Positions 151 to 44,334 of a stretch of 55,439 nucleotides of DNA are shown piece by piece (the stretch's first letter is position 1; each line of letters begins with the position of its first letter). The DNA lies in the NCBI GenBank assembly GCA_028717805.1, contig JAQUNC010000009.1, positions 1-55,439 of the forward strand. Direction: 5' to 3'. The translations under genes were made by a program, and so were the position numbers. The notes beneath the pieces are model-generated. The model was not told where the DNA came from. It searched no databases and worked only from the letters and a program-made list of their open reading frames with translations. The stretch comes from Atribacterota bacterium (GTDB lineage: Bacteria; Atribacterota; Phoenicimicrobiia; Phoenicimicrobiales; Stramentimicrobiaceae).

Positions 151-250
151 AAGGTGTAAGATAAAATTAGTCGTTTGTCGTTGGTAGTTAGTAGCTATTT
201 TAAGACAATCGAATTCAGTAATAAGTGACAAGTAATTAGTGATGAGCAAT
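151..250. repeat. Intergenic repeat family A, copy 1
   Basis: This stretch carries TAGTCGTTTGTCGTTGGTAG, then TTAAGACAATCGAATTCAGT, then a run of short near-repeats such as AATAAGTGA and TGATGAG. Closely similar copies lie at about 3510-3590 and 5448-5545, and a shorter one at 4224-4262. I found no plausible gene in it. The 61-codon open frame across 70-255 is made of the IS end plus this repeat and I do not accept it as a gene. Confidence 0.75.
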
Positions 251-3419: not shown

Positions 3420-3592
3420 AATTAAATACAAGAAAATATAGTGACAAGTACTTAGTGATGAGTAATAAGCAAATAAATACTGTGGGTATAAATGTATGAG
3501 ATTGCCTTATTAGTCGTTTGTCGTTGGTAGTTAGTAGCTAGTTTAAGACAATCGAATTCAGTGATAAGTGATGAGTGACCAGTAATGAGCCT
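3420..3592. repeat. Intergenic repeats: families C and A (copy 2)
   Basis: Positions 3420-3509 contain AAATACAAGAAAATATAGTG, short TAGTGATGAGTAA-type units and TATAAATGTATGAGATTGCC. This is followed at 3510-3590 by a second copy of repeat A (TAGTCGTTTGTCGTTGGTAG ... AAGACAATCGAATTCAGT). The C type recurs near 6880-6945. Confidence 0.7.
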
Positions 3593-5337: not shown

Positions 5338-5545
5338 GTTATCAGTTGACGGTTTTTGGTTTTTAAACAAATACCACTAAAGATTCAAGATTAAATGAAT
5401 GTTATAGTCTACCGGTCACCCGGTCTGCCAGTCCGCCGGTCGAAAGAAAGGTGCAAGATAAAATTAGTCGTTTGACGTTAGTCGTTAGTAGATAGTTTAA
5501 GACAATCGAATTCAGTAATAAGTGATAAGTAACCAGTATCGAGTA
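5338..5545. repeat. Intergenic repeats: family B copy 3 and family A copy 3
   Basis: TCAGTTGACGGTTTTTGGTT (also near 305 and 6724) is followed by a B unit with ATAGTCTACCGGTC and by an A unit with AATTAGTCGTTTGACG and AAGACAATCGAATTCAGTAA. The B-then-A order resembles a composite block. The 5253-5602 gap holds nothing else I can name. Confidence 0.72.
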
Positions 5546-39481: not shown

Positions 39482-40499
39482 TTCTCTTTTTCCTCCTGAT
39501 CATATCCAGAAAGCCCTCAATACGGGTATTGATACCCGCTTCTCCGGTATGCTCATCAAAAACAAATTCAGTATAGGCAACTCCAGGGTGCTGCTGGCTT
39601 TGATGATGAATCAGCTCACCTACCATGGAATCTTCTCCGCATTCAAAGGAAGTTAAATGTATAATTCCCTCCACCCGGTTTTCAAAATAATAAAAGGCAG
39701 CACCTGTTACTTTTCGGGAAAGACTCCAGAAAATTGGCTTGTATAGCTTTTTCAATTGTTTTTTAACAATATTAGGGGGCACCATTCCCGGTGTCAGCAC
39801 ATTAACCTTCATATTCTTCAACTTCTCTATCAAGTTTAAGTTAATATAGGAATCATTAATGAGATAATCGTGACCAACTACGGCAATGTTAATTGGTATC
39901 TCTGGTAATTGCTTCCTAGCACTATTAGTATCGATGTTTAATAGACCGGGTCTAAGTGTTTTGGGATCTAAAATGTTAGCCACATAATTTTTCTGGAAAT
40001 TCTCCCAGGAGGCAGAAAAGGCTCTGGAGATAGCTAAAGAATTTTCAGTTACCAATTGCCCTACCTGAAATAAACTATTCTTCCAGGTACCATAAGACTT
40101 TCTAATATCAACAACCGGATTGATAATTGGGCATAAAGAAGTAAGGGAAGTTTTTACCATGTCCGGAAGACCAATAATCTTGGGGCAAAAGAAGGCACCC
40201 TTTTCAACACATACCATTCTAGGAATCAACATATAATCTACCTGATCGGCTAAACTTAATACATGTCCATAGAACGCCTTTACCGGCAGGCAGACCTCGC
40301 TTAGAGAAGAACGTATTCCTAAATCAAGAATATTTTTATTAGTAGACTTAGAAAGTATTACCTCTGCTCCCAGGCGAGTTAAAAACTCTTTCCAGAGAGG
40401 GTAGTATTCATAGAAATAGAGTGCATAAGGTATACCAATCTTTTTCTGCTTCATTTTCTTTACCGCTTTCTTTAAAGCAGGATTAAAATACCTAAACAA
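39453..40499 (-). CDS. DUF2229-type activase-associated protein, upstream paralogue
   Basis: The 348-residue protein begins KKIGIPYALYFYEYYPLWKE, as does the N-terminal part of DUF2229 proteins, followed by LGIRSSLSEVCLPVKAFYGH and FECGEDSMV with conserved Cys. It ends FDEHTGEAGINTRIEGFLDM, very like its downstream neighbour. It overlaps that gene by 29 bases, so the three-gene set is tightly coupled. First gene of the unit; the exported methyltransferase gene lies only 21 bases upstream of it. Confidence 0.78.
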   Translation of the reverse strand: MFRYFNPALKKAVKKMKQKKIGIPYALYFYEYYPLWKEFLTRLGAEVILSKSTNKNILDLGIRSSLSEVCLPVKAFYGHVLSLADQVDYMLIPRMVCVEKGAFFCPKIIGLPDMVKTSLTSLCPIINPVVDIRKSYGTWKNSLFQVGQLVTENSLAISRAFSASWENFQKNYVANILDPKTLRPGLLNIDTNSARKQLPEIPINIAVVGHDYLINDSYINLNLIEKLKNMKVNVLTPGMVPPNIVKKQLKKLYKPIFWSLSRKVTGAAFYYFENRVEGIIHLTSFECGEDSMVGELIHHQSQQHPGVAYTEFVFDEHTGEAGINTRIEGFLDMIRRKKRNEISFAPSW

Positions 40500-40520
40500 G
40501 ATTTAATAAGTTTAATCAAT

Positions 40521-41243
40521 TCACCTGAGCATGGGTACAAAAAGAACGCCAGTAATTCCTTCCGAAACTCTATTGCCTTCTTTGATATAAATTTTCATTA
40601 AGGTTTGAATCATCCACACACTACCGACCGGAATGACCATTCGTCCATGCTCTGGATGTAATTGTTCTAATAAAGGTGGAGGTACATGATCGGGAGCACA
40701 GGTAACTATAATAGCATCAAAGGGTGCTTCCTCCTCCCAGCCATAATAGCCATCTCCAACCATAAATTTAACATTATTATAACCCAGCCTGTTTAGCAGA
40801 TCTTGTGCCTTTAGGGATAATGATTCGTAAATTTCTATAGTATAAACTTCCCTTACTATTTCTGCTAAAATGGCGGCTTGATAGCCAGAGCCGGTACCTA
40901 TTTCCAGGACTTTTTCTTCTCCAGTTAGCTCCAGTAATTGAGTCATTAAAGCGACAATATAGGGTTGGGAAATAGTCTGACCTTCACCAATACCTAAAGG
41001 ATAATCATTGTATGCTTCATCCTTAACTCGGCTATCTACAAATTCATGTCGGGGAACTTTTCTCATGGCCGCCAAGACTAGTGTATCGGTAATATCTCGG
41101 GCAACTAATTGACTGGTTACCATCTTCTCTCGACGTTGATGGTAGACAGATTCTTCTGTTTCCTGTGAGAAGATTGCAGTGTCAAACATCATTAAAGAAA
41201 GGATTAATATGAGAAAAAGAAATATTATTTTAAATCTTCTCAT
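40521..41243 (-). CDS. pcm: Protein-L-isoaspartate O-methyltransferase with signal peptide
   Basis: I start at the ATG giving MRRFKIIFLFLILILSLMMF, with GGAGGTG about nine bases upstream. The roughly 240-residue enzyme has the PCMT core: VPRHEFVD, GEGQTISQPYIVALM, VLEIGTGSGYQAAILA (SAM site) and IIVTCAPDHVPPPLLEQL. It repairs isoaspartyl damage using S-adenosylmethionine. The hydrophobic N-terminus followed by FSQET suggests export or anchoring outside the membrane, which is odd as SAM is cytosolic; some bacteria do have such exported forms. It precedes the activase set. Confidence 0.9.
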   Translation of the reverse strand: MRRFKIIFLFLILILSLMMFDTAIFSQETEESVYHQRREKMVTSQLVARDITDTLVLAAMRKVPRHEFVDSRVKDEAYNDYPLGIGEGQTISQPYIVALMTQLLELTGEEKVLEIGTGSGYQAAILAEIVREVYTIEIYESLSLKAQDLLNRLGYNNVKFMVGDGYYGWEEEAPFDAIIVTCAPDHVPPPLLEQLHPEHGRMVIPVGSVWMIQTLMKIYIKEGNRVSEGITGVLFVPMLR

Positions 41244-41627
41244 TTTATTATCCACCTCCATTCAACCTAAGCAGTAAAATAGGTTAAACACTAGTGGCGA
41301 TTAGCTTTTTTATCTAATAATCAGCCTGTAGTAAATAATGTTACCCTTTTATCGCTTTTTTTTCAAGATTGCTTTTCAGTAAGTTAGTCTTTCTTAAATT
41401 GTTATTTTTTAAAATCTCCTTAAGTTTAATCTTTTTTTCAGCAATAAATCCCCTTTTGCTTTTACTTTTAAGTCTTTTTGAGCAAAATTTTAGTAAAAAT
41501 ATCCTCTATTTTTACTGTTACTGGACTACAAAATAATATCCCATGACTTATTATATACCAAAAACATTTTATTAATAAAAAATTACTTATAAAAAATTAA
41601 ATAATAGCTGATTCAGGAGGTAACTAA
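41244..41627. other. Divergent promoter region, no gene seen
   Basis: About 390 AT-rich bases between the pcm gene and the sigma-like gene. TTAGCTTTTTTATCTAATAATC and long T runs are present, but no ORF, RNA structure or repeat that I can name. An AGGAGGT site lies at the right end. Confidence 0.45.
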
Positions 41628-41927
41628 ATTTTTATCATGAAAATAATGAATAAATTAATACAAAAGGCTAAAGGTGGAGATAAGGAAGCTATGGCACAGT
41701 TAATTGAGCAATTTAATCCTCTCTTAAAAAGACAGGCTAGCTTTTTCAAGCTATTGGGACTGGAATATGAAGATGCCTATCAACAGGCTGTTTTATACTT
41801 TATTTCCGGTGTTTACCAGTACCGGCTGATACCACCGGTAACCTTTGCCGGATATATGAAGAAAAGGATTAAATGGGGGCTTTGGGTGTATTGGAGAAAA
41901 CTGTATGGGAATCATAGTGGGAAATAA
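41628..41927 (+). CDS. Sigma-factor region-2-like protein
   Basis: The protein of about 96-99 residues (KAKGGDKEAMAQLIEQFNPL, then LGLEYEDAYQQAVLYFISGV and WVYWRKLYG) has the helix pattern of sigma-70 region 2: an N-terminal helix, a core-binding helix with E-D-x-x-Q, and a Trp/Tyr-rich end. It has no region 4; that lies in the next gene. The first ATG is at 41637, but AGGAGGT is at the right distance for an in-frame ATT at 41628, a rare start codon used by infC, and too far for the ATG. A two-gene sigma such as B. subtilis RsoA/SigO is the known precedent. Confidence 0.65.
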   Translation: MFIMKIMNKLIQKAKGGDKEAMAQLIEQFNPLLKRQASFFKLLGLEYEDAYQQAVLYFISGVYQYRLIPPVTFAGYMKKRIKWGLWVYWRKLYGNHSGK

Positions 41928-41929
41928 AG

Positions 41930-42055
41930 TTTTTAGTTGTCAGTTCATTTTGTAAAGAACAACCAATAAGCTCTTCTTATATTATGACTATATTTTTGCT
42001 CTCTACGATCGACTACCGACACACGACAAACGACTATCGACTAGCAACGTATGAC
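41930..42055. repeat. Repeat-like block separating the two sigma-like genes
   Basis: TTTTTAGTTGTCAGTTCATT is followed by CTACGATCGACTACCGACAC and GACAAACGACTATCGACTAG. The latter is a reverse-complement relative of repeat family A (TAGTCGTTTGTCG). The block fills almost the whole gap between region-2 and region-4 coding parts and looks inserted. Confidence 0.55.
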
Positions 42056-42077
42056 TTTTTTAATTATGGGGGATTGA

Positions 42078-42317
42078 ATGAATTATCATGACTTAGAAAA
42101 TCACTTACTAAATATTGTTATTGAGGAATGCTTAAGTAAGCTTGCTTGGCAGGAACGGAAGATTATTTTGCTCTATTACTGGTGTGGGTATCGAGATGCG
42201 GAAATTGGAAATATGCTGGGTAAATCCCAGCAAATAATTAACTACAGGCGTAACCAGGCTTTAAAAAAGATTAAACAAACATACTTAAAGGGATTCCTTC
42301 CTCCTGAACAATCTTAA
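42078..42317 (+). CDS. Sigma-70 region-4-like DNA-binding protein
   Basis: The 79-residue protein is a region-4 helix-turn-helix: CLSKLAWQERKIILLYYWCG, then RDAEIGNMLGKSQQIINYRR with the recognition helix, ending QALKKIKQTYL. It has its own ribosome-binding site (GGGGGA). It lies in the same reading frame as the region-2 gene upstream, separated by a repeat-like block. Together the two make one full small sigma factor. Whether they work as two chains or as leftovers of one broken gene cannot be told from sequence alone. Confidence 0.75.
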   Translation: MNYHDLENHLLNIVIEECLSKLAWQERKIILLYYWCGYRDAEIGNMLGKSQQIINYRRNQALKKIKQTYLKGFLPPEQS

Positions 42318-42418
42318 AATATTATGGATAGTTAAAGCTAACAATATGATAATAATTAGTGCAGAAATCTTCTCTGGGTAATATTACCAATTACGTCAGA
42401 CTGCAGGTAACAATTTGT

Positions 42419-43366
42419 CTATTTATTAGCAGTAGATAGAAAGATTTCCTGATAGGCCAGGGCGATCTGGGCAGCTATGCAGGCATTATGTTTTAATAGT
42501 TCTATGTTTGCTTTTAAACTTCTTCCATCACTAAGATCTTTTATTTTATTGAGCAAATAAGGAGTAAGTTTTTTACCTTTAATATTATCCTGGTGGGCTA
42601 ACTTCATAGCTTGTTCTATCCAGTGATCAACCTTCTTTTTGCTAAGGGCAAATTCAGTGGGTACCGGATTGGTTATTAATAAACCGGTCCCTAATTTCAA
42701 TCGTAAATGAGCCCAAACCACTTGAGCTGCTTCCCAGCTATCTTTTAAAGGATAATCAACTTTCAAATGACTGGATTGACTATAAAAAGCAGGTAAATCT
42801 TCTGTCTGGTAACCTAATACCGGAACACCTACAGTCTCTAGATATTCCATGGTATGGGGAATATCTAGAATAGCCTTGGCACCAGAACAGATTACCGCCA
42901 CTGGAGTCCTGGCAAGCTCAGTTAAGTCAGTAGAAATATCCATAGGATATTCTCCTTGGTAATTATTATGAACTCCTCCAATGCCACCGGTTGCAAAGAA
43001 TATTATCTGACAGTGATGAGCTATCCACATGGTTAAAGCTACAGTGGTTCCTGCATTCATGCCCTTGGCAATAAGAGAGGATAAGTCTCTCTTGCTGGCT
43101 TTAATAGTACTTTTAGAATGGGCAAGCTTCTCAATTTCATCATGACTTAAACCCACCTTTATCTTACCATCTATAATGGCAATAGTAGCAGGAATAGCTC
43201 CCTGTTCACGTATATTCTTTTCCATCTGGAAAGCTGTATCAATATTTTCCGGAAAGGGCAAGCCATGGGTGATAAGATTAGATTCAAGTGCCACAACCGG
43301 TTTGCCTCTTTTACCTTTGCCGATTGCCTCTCTTATTTCTTCTGAAATTTCAAAATAATCCATCAT
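42419..43366 (-). CDS. psuG: Pseudouridine-5'-phosphate glycosidase
   Basis: The 315-residue enzyme splits pseudouridine-5'-phosphate into uracil and ribose-5-phosphate. Motifs: VALESNLITHGLPFPEN, KASKRDLSSLIAKGMNAGTT with the catalytic Lys, FATGGIGGVHNNYQGEYPMD with metal-binding Asp, and ICSGAKAILDIPHTMEYLET. Length is normal. Its ATG shares one base with the stop of the kinase gene (TAATG), so the two are coupled. Together they recycle modified RNA bases. No pseudouridine transporter is adjacent. Confidence 0.96.
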   Translation of the reverse strand: MMDYFEISEEIREAIGKGKRGKPVVALESNLITHGLPFPENIDTAFQMEKNIREQGAIPATIAIIDGKIKVGLSHDEIEKLAHSKSTIKASKRDLSSLIAKGMNAGTTVALTMWIAHHCQIIFFATGGIGGVHNNYQGEYPMDISTDLTELARTPVAVICSGAKAILDIPHTMEYLETVGVPVLGYQTEDLPAFYSQSSHLKVDYPLKDSWEAAQVVWAHLRLKLGTGLLITNPVPTEFALSKKKVDHWIEQAMKLAHQDNIKGKKLTPYLLNKIKDLSDGRSLKANIELLKHNACIAAQIALAYQEIFLSTANK

Positions 43367-44334
43367 TATAAAATCCTGAATATTCTTACCATTTGTTTTT
43401 TAACCATAACTTCATCAAGCTGGGGATAGACCGACTCAGGAGAATTAACCGTTAAGACTGAGATAATAAGACCTATTTGAACCGACTGGTAAAGTCTATA
43501 ATTATGATATAATCCGTAGGCTATTCCAGCTACCAGTGCATCACCTGCTCCAGTACAGTCTACCATTTTTCTTCTCCTGGTATTAATAAACTCTCCCTCT
43601 GGAACCTGCACTGAATAAATATAAACACCCTGAGTGCTGTTAGTCAAGATAATGTTCTGAACACCTTTTTTCATGAGCCTTTCTATGGCTCTCTCTCGAT
43701 CAGCAGAATTTTTTATTACTAGACCGGAAAGAGCACCAAGCTCACCGATGTTAGGAGTGAGATAATTAATTTTAGGTAAAATTCCTAATAATTTTCTGCT
43801 TTTTACTATTGATACTGGATCAACAATCATAGGTATGTTTTCTCTGCTACATAAAGAGGCAACATAATGAATTGCTTGGGTAGTAAGATTGGTATCCATG
43901 ATAACAAGGCGGTTTTTCATTATAATCCCGGATTTGGCAATAAGATAACGGGGAGTGACCCTTTTCATAATCACAGTATCACTTACGGCAACCTGCATAT
44001 TTCCCTTTTCATCCAATACAGCTATATACTTTCCGGTTGGATCCTTTTTGGACAGAATGACATCTCTGGTCTGAACATGGGCCTTTCTTAGCTTTTCCAA
44101 AATCTCTCTGCCTTCCTCATCATCACCTACTACAGTTAAAAAGTTTACCGGGATGTTTAGTAATCCCAAATAATGGGCAATATTTCTCCCAACACCGCCA
44201 TGACTAATCCGTATGGTTCCGGGATTGGAAGTATCCCATTGAAGAACATTTTTAGGCTTTCCTTTTATATCAATATTGGTACCGCCGATAACCACAATGC
44301 CCTCTTTTTCTTCATCAGAAAAATTCATAATCAC
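43366..44334 (-). CDS. psuK: PfkB-family kinase, probable pseudouridine kinase
   Basis: The 322-residue ribokinase-like enzyme has GVGRNIAHYLGLLNIPVNFL near the N-terminus and the C-terminal anion hole/base motif DCTGAGDALVAGIAYGLY. It begins IVVIGGTNIDIKGKP, as pseudouridine kinases do. Coupling to psuG makes pseudouridine the likely substrate: kinase first, then glycosidase. No fused helix-turn-helix is present. An inverted repeat TTTAACCAT/ATGGTTAAA with a 26-base spacer lies in the 131-bp gap upstream. Confidence 0.9.
   Translation of the reverse strand: MIMNFSDEEKEGIVVIGGTNIDIKGKPKNVLQWDTSNPGTIRISHGGVGRNIAHYLGLLNIPVNFLTVVGDDEEGREILEKLRKAHVQTRDVILSKKDPTGKYIAVLDEKGNMQVAVSDTVIMKRVTPRYLIAKSGIIMKNRLVIMDTNLTTQAIHYVASLCSRENIPMIVDPVSIVKSRKLLGILPKINYLTPNIGELGALSGLVIKNSADRERAIERLMKKGVQNIILTNSTQGVYIYSVQVPEGEFINTRRRKMVDCTGAGDALVAGIAYGLYHNYRLYQSVQIGLIISVLTVNSPESVYPQLDEVMVKKQMVRIFRIL

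Follow-up and report, generated by a model that had tools for sequence, protein, structure and literature searches.

A putative two-chain sigma factor encoded by adjacent region 2 and region 4 genes in an order of the Atribacterota

Two small adjacent genes of an Atribacterota genome, one related to sigma factor region 2 (R2) and the other to sigma factor region 4 (R4), probably encode a genuine two-chain alternative sigma factor, as judged from comparative data and structural models. Both lie in the window, the whole 55,439-nucleotide stretch analysed here, which belongs to a genome (G000) of 2.27 Mb in 92 contigs. The original prediction had offered this as one of two readings, likening the pair to RsoA/SigO of Bacillus subtilis; conservation of the pair, selection on both genes and the predicted folds support it. 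Relatives that carry the same split refute the other reading, in which an insertion divided a sigma gene.

Results

Two genes for regions 2 and 4

Regions 2 and 4 are encoded by two genes on the same strand, 150 bases apart (Table 1). The starts are separated by 441 bases and the genes thus share a frame, as had been described. Each had also been described as having its own ribosome-binding site; a Shine-Dalgarno AGGAGGT precedes R2, and GGGGG stands before R4. The start of R2 had been placed at 41628, where there is an in-frame ATT; the ATG lies at 41637. Since the ATT is only 6 bases past AGGAGGT (15 bases for the ATG), the N-terminus of R2 is open by three codons. The flanking genes at 40521-41261 (-) and 42419-43366 (-) are presumably pcm and psuG, respectively. 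An Rfam scan of window positions 40000-44000 gave no match, and a terminator scan of 41250-42450 found none.

In Pfam, R2 matched HTH_16 over the cut-off (1.4e-5) and Sigma70_r2 below it (0.0053; 17 bits against a cut-off of 24), while R4 matched both Sigma70_r4_2 (3.9e-9) and Sigma70_r4 (2.5e-8) over their cut-offs. The best NCBIfam matches, SigF/SigG-type models for R2 (1.8e-6) and the sigma70-ECF superfamily for R4 (3.6e-10), were below the models' own cut-offs.

Table 1. Features of the gene pair and of the upstream blocks (window positions unless another contig is named).
Feature	Position	Strand	Details
Promoter-like block upstream of R2	41504..41554	+	CTCTATTTTTAC - 8 - GACTACA (41524-41530) - 18 - TATTAT (41549-41554)
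R2 Shine-Dalgarno AGGAGGT	41615..41621	+	From sequence
R2 (sigma region 2 gene)	41637..41927	+	ATG, 96 aa; a start at the in-frame ATT (41628) would give 99 aa
Gap between R2 and R4	41928..42077	+	150 bases, intergenic
Stretch akin to an intergenic repeat family of the window (at 168-192 and 3511-3542)	42005..42036	-	From alignment
R4 (sigma region 4 gene)	42078..42317	+	79 aa
Promoter-like block before the DUF1659 cassette	G000 C45:15991-16028 (L187 5992-6029)		Conserved in seven genomes of the family

Distribution and age of the split

The R2 search covered 119 genomes, including the 24 genomes of the order and counting the window's own. Matches at E <= 0.01 occurred in 23 of the 119, and strong homologues (E below 1e-15) in 14, all among the 24 of the order. 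An R2 profile run over 50 genomes of the phylum retrieved the same 14 genomes plus G007, whose R2 is a remnant interrupted by three stops and in which R4 was not found. The other profile matches, apart from one 74-aa frame in G022 (9.1e-5), lie in frames of 211-412 aa and are for that reason read as ordinary sigma factors. R4 matches at E <= 0.01 were more widespread (45 of 119 genomes), the strong ones again falling in the same genomes of the order. G088 yielded 21 R4 matches (e.g. C79:15949-16122), and the listed ones belong to frames some 420-1050 aa long that may be LuxR-type regulators.

Fifteen of 16 R2 loci entered the pair measurement, which gave 14 measurable pairs from 12 genomes; G006, whose R2 is cut by a contig end with R4 about 0.6 kb downstream, gave no measured pair, and the locus of G010, whose contig ends after R2, was the one not entered. 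R4 lies just downstream of R2 on the same strand in 14/14 pairs. Measured to the likeliest R4 start, the gap ranges from a 4-base overlap to 260 bases and is below 60 bases in six pairs (-4 in G013, 0 in G004, 38 in G001, 51 in G017, 53 in G014 and 59 in G021), the other values being 122, 150, 172, 192, 218 and 260. Both copies in G022 have a gap of 150 with a TTG start, nearer ATG starts being possible in one copy. No fused R2-R4 form was found among the 119 genomes searched or the 50 genomes of the phylum, although the relatives include MAG assemblies, in which gaps, stops and absences may be assembly effects. In the genomes searched, the family thus does not carry regions 2 and 4 in one chain, as ordinary ECF or group IV sigma factors do.

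These data bear directly on the insertion reading, by which a repeat split one sigma gene in this lineage, leaving two halves that are both still translated. The common frame of R2 and R4 and the 32 repeat-like bases in the gap would fit such an event, whose probability we now put close to nil. It fails because the pair is present in 14 of the order's 24 genomes, with gaps of varying length and frames that agree in only 6/14 pairs, and no fused homologue turned up. Relatives with the same split but no repeat-derived block, a test set beforehand, were found. The frame agreement itself was considered as a trace of a former single gene and ruled out on the same count of homologous pairs. By its distribution, the division into two genes is old and predates the divergence of the order's pairs, with intergenic repeats entering some gaps afterwards.

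Phage or plasmid origin of R2 was also ruled out: no R2 relatives were found in viral contigs or, at E 0.01, in 72,556 plasmid records, and phages contributed only three records, about 31% identical, of which two belong to one phage.

Repeat-related sequence in the gap

The gap had been described as filled by sequence related to a repeat family of the window. This holds for about 32 of the 150 bases, roughly a fifth, which are clearly repeat-like, and not for the rest. Positions 42005-42036 align at 78% to the inverted copy of a family found at window 151-240, 3494-3583 and 5448-5537. The likeness is beyond chance: its score of 34 was equalled in 1/1000 dinucleotide shuffles of the gap and by 0/220 other 150-base tiles (window 8000-41000). 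Searched against its own genome, a 156-base piece containing the gap gave no other match beyond 16-21 bases. The three copies, near the window start, form an intergenic family of GTCGTTNGT-like units, and by eye, related units occupy gaps in some relatives.

The long gap of G002 holds a GTCGTTAGTCG-type intergenic repeat and those of G009b and G022 a TCATTGCGAGC...GTGGCAATCTC-type repeat, with a related form in G008; the 53-base gap of G014 is mostly a small hairpin (all by eye). Because the long gaps carry differing repeats, the repeats entered separately. Judged by these comparisons, the repeat DNA between R2 and R4 is a later passenger and not the cause of the split.

Both chains resemble sigma domains and are constrained

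The pairs of clade I (G000, G001, G002, G004, G006 and G009, with the remnant in G007) lie at or near the pcm-psuG locus. Among them, dN was 0.17-0.26 for R2 with dS from 1.2 to saturated (NG86; 10 pairs, dS saturated in 4), and 0.28-0.54 for R4 with dS from 0.86 to saturated (15 pairs, saturated in 6), third codon positions being the most changed in every comparison. Clade II, the sister lineage, likewise showed constraint on both chains (36 pairs each) with one exception, R4 of G008 versus G009. The invariant residues of R2 fall in sigma regions 2.1-2.3, including the aromatic region 2.3. Going by the substitution patterns, both R2 and R4 are working proteins under constraint.

AlphaFold models of the single chains reached a pLDDT of 93.0 for R2 (15 sequences of the order) and 84.2 for R4 (16 sequences). 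Per Foldseek, the best 50 matches of each chain were sigma factors or sigma-containing complexes, R2 matching sigma region 2 domains (best E 0.017) and R4 sigma region 4 (best E 0.0011), with TM-scores to the query of up to 0.82 (reached by R2). Profile searches against the PDB gave SigF (1l0o, 1.3e-6) as the best match of R2 and WhiG (6pfj, 8.5e-9) as that of R4. Against the two-chain reading, the Sigma70_r2 match of R2 is under the Pfam cut-off and the Foldseek E-values are modest, none being below 0.001 for either chain.

Were the pair to act as a sigma factor, R2 would sit on the clamp of the core polymerase and open the -10 element, with R4 binding the flap and the -35 element. A promoter-specific holoenzyme would form only with both chains, in effect an AND gate. 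Assembly of the two on polymerase and the AND logic are what we infer beyond the observed split, conservation, selection, fold and linkage in relatives. It is also conceivable, and in our judgment unlikely, that the chains form no joint sigma factor, R4 acting alone as a helix-turn-helix regulator and R2 serving as a decoy or adaptor that binds polymerase or an anti-sigma factor. R4 does resemble UPF0122/YlxM-type HTH proteins as well, and it occurs by itself: G010:C34 (L099 4579-4797) has a winged helix-turn-helix (wHTH) gene and then R4 only, without an adjacent R2, and in another family of the phylum an R4-only protein of 118 aa precedes DUF2922 (G030:C126, L063 729-1085). Nevertheless, R2 retains the sigma 2.1-2.3 core with its aromatic region, and the two genes adjoin in every measurable pair, both constrained, which argues for the two-chain sigma factor.

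A candidate target cassette

In clade II clusters, an SF2 helicase with a C-terminal Trans_reg_C domain and a DnaD/HTH_36-type wHTH protein precede R2 and R4, and a cassette follows. Its order is DUF1659, DUF2922, a Holin_LLH-like membrane protein, a Peptidase_M15_3 protein and a YvrJ-like protein. DUF1659 stands directly after R4 on the same strand in seven of the nine readable clusters (two in G022 and one each in G009, G021, G008, G017, G014, G019 and G013), and in G022:C51 and G013 only a YvrJ-like ORF remains downstream of R4. Clade I genomes have the cassette at sites unlinked to the pair. In the window's genome, the same helicase lies on C45 and DUF1659 starts 2.8 kb and two genes after it, at the contig end, with the rest of the cassette at the start of C53; these contigs presumably adjoin. 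The holin match is weak in the window's genome (0.025, below the cut-off) and over the cut-off in G022. YvrJ matches at E <= 0.001 were obtained in 18/51 genomes, five of them over the Pfam cut-off; YvrJ-like genes lie at the cassette end, and in the window's genome this gene is unlinked to the pair.

The target genes, called unknown in the original prediction, can thus be narrowed to one candidate: this cassette is the most likely predicted target of the pair, at what we would call slightly less than an even chance. Its holin-like and M15 members suggest, tentatively, a role in the envelope, lysis or export. There is also a fair-sized possibility that the two-chain sigma factor is real and serves another regulon, its linkage in the sister lineage being incidental or derived from a paralogous system. 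The promoter-like blocks of pair and cassette differ, as described below. G007 keeps the cassette and its block despite a broken R2, and G008 keeps a family-type cassette and block without a clade I pair. Across 24 genomes, the association of pair and cassette is weak (13/1/5/5, Fisher p 0.028), and it disappears once the count is limited to genomes with a completeness of 80% or more (12/1/4/1, p 0.49). In contrast, the same-strand linkage in clade II points to the cassette as target, and the available excerpt of PMC8103513 places yvrJ in the regulon of the known two-chain SigO-RsoA.

Also against this target, cassettes outside the order (e.g. G127, G269 and G029) were seen with no adjacent sigma pair. 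DUF1659-DUF2922 with M15 and YvrJ-like or holin-like genes was seen, likewise with no sigma pair beside it, in the distant lineages G127, G269, G029 and G037 (L188-L190, L200 and L197).

Promoter-like blocks

Upstream of R2, three boxes with the same spacings are conserved in 5/5 clade I genomes, 70-113 bases before the start codon (consensus: a box near CTCTNTNTTNAS, 8 bases, GACTACA, 18 bases, TAT/TAC); in G009 the spacings are unchanged and CTGC stands in place of CTCT. This is the sole place in the window's genome with fewer than three mismatches to the block, and a search there for further copies gave three other matches, each with three mismatches, as many as the reversed control. GACTACA alone is weak, as 35/1000 shuffled sets also have a common 7-mer.

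A different block, TTTTGTAWTTT-7-TTTNTGCTTTTAC, precedes DUF1659 in 7/7 readable clade I-type cassettes (G000, G002, G004, G006, G007, G008 and G009), its spacer being one base shorter in G004. The window's genome has it in a single place, and no second site came within three mismatches (control 0). A unique, conserved block at a single cassette is what a single-target sigma factor would need, and the putative sigma pair may read it.

A promoter common to pair and cassette was looked for by pairwise alignment and weight matrix and was not supported. Most of the 20 upstream-to-upstream alignments of pair and cassette scored no better than shuffles, the best being G000 versus L108 (2/200 shuffles) and versus L105 (6/200). 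The weight matrix gave its window hit a score of 10.0 (3/200 shuffles for G000), true sites scoring 43-51, and nothing convincing in four other genomes. The differing blocks and shuffle-level alignments thus lend no support to a common promoter.

The block upstream of the clade II wHTH gene, GATACA - 17 - TCTAAT (TG precedes the second box), resembles an extended -10 promoter of the housekeeping type. It was rejected as the pair's own target, being housekeeping-like and unchanged where the R4 helix differs.

Separately, some clade II genes carry a perfect 7-10 bp inverted repeat immediately 5' of the Shine-Dalgarno sequence, about 17-27 bases before the start: DUF1659 in 8/9 cases, DUF2922 in 3/10 and R4 in 3/8 (<= 1/300 shuffles in these cases). 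The stems differ but are complementary (GCAATTAACC, CTAATTGACC, GGATTTACC, GCTAATTGGC and others).

Comparison with known systems

PF14184 (YrvL), which we take to be the family of the SigO regulator YvrL, gave no hit over the cut-off in 24 genomes and one sub-threshold hit in G005, with a positive B. subtilis control. As excerpted, PMC8103513 describes SigO-RsoA (YvrI-YvrHa) of B. subtilis as dividing sigma-4 and sigma-2 functions between two small genes of one operon, written yvrI-yvrHa with the sigma-4 gene first; the excerpt of PMC10141391 assigns the domains of SigO and RsoA in the opposite order and lists SigO at 22.54 kDa. The window pair is similar in having sigma-2 and sigma-4 on separate small genes; a YvrJ-family gene also closes the candidate cassette, which lies beside the pair in the sister lineage. 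In contrast, R2 comes first and R4 second in all 14 pairs, and R4 spans only 66-91 aa. Given the reversed order, the far smaller sigma-4 chain and the absence of YvrL, the pair would be another two-chain sigma factor and not SigO-RsoA itself, in a comparison by gene order, size and descriptions.

The pair also recalls Orf8/Orf7 of Tn916, which combine a small HTH_16 gene with a sigma-region-4 gene, as R2 matches HTH_16 over the cut-off; we take it that the HTH_16 family and the region-4 protein Orf7 occur in Tn916. The accessible part of a Tn916 paper (PMC11658703) holds nothing on Orf7/Orf8 as a sigma factor. Unlike these, the window pair has ordinary chromosomal surroundings (pcm and psuG), and no plasmid relatives of R2 were found. 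Group V sigma factors of the TcdR/UviA type are linked to the holins TcdE/UviB, and the likeness is of a sigma factor dedicated to a small set of genes that includes a holin. However, those are single-chain sigma factors, and the cassette described here showed no toxin gene. TcdR is treated as hard to class in the excerpt of PMC8103513.

No second natural two-chain bacterial sigma factor besides SigO-RsoA was found in the literature searched, so that SigO-RsoA is essentially the only characterised example, and the pair would add a smaller, long-conserved example from an uncultured phylum. The 14 natural pairs, with their differing gaps and frames, form a natural series on whether sigma-2 and sigma-4 need tethering. 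The pair is likewise the first testable regulator candidate for the DUF1659-DUF2922-YvrJ cassette; the name DUF2922 was absent from the literature searched, and DUF1659 appeared in a single paper.

Module replacement in clade II clusters

Clade II clusters raise the speculative and rather improbable idea of a minimal two-chain sigma factor with exchangeable promoter-reading parts, in which R2 stays constant while the -35 helix of R4 and the DnaD-like wHTH are swapped between loci. If true, the two-gene split would let the promoter specificity of a lysis or export cassette change without touching the polymerase-binding chain. The comparisons within G008/G009 and G022 indicate that the parts that read DNA are exchanged as modules, the polymerase-binding chain being constant. 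Recombination is the simple cause of such replacement, and selection for changed specificity is possible.

The clusters G008:C47 (L091 1-3766) and G009:C80 (L089 6003-9477) are near-identical, with 89-100% DNA identity in all 30-base blocks of R2, DUF1659 and DUF2922 and in most blocks flanking the wHTH gene. The wHTH domain of the DnaD-like gene is replaced (blocks at 7-70%), as is the last third of R4, the recognition helix (60-76%). R2 of these two genomes differs by seven silent changes and zero amino acids; R4 has a dN of 0.15 versus a dS of 0.19. In the two G022 copies, the wHTH half differs and R4 is 93-100% alike.
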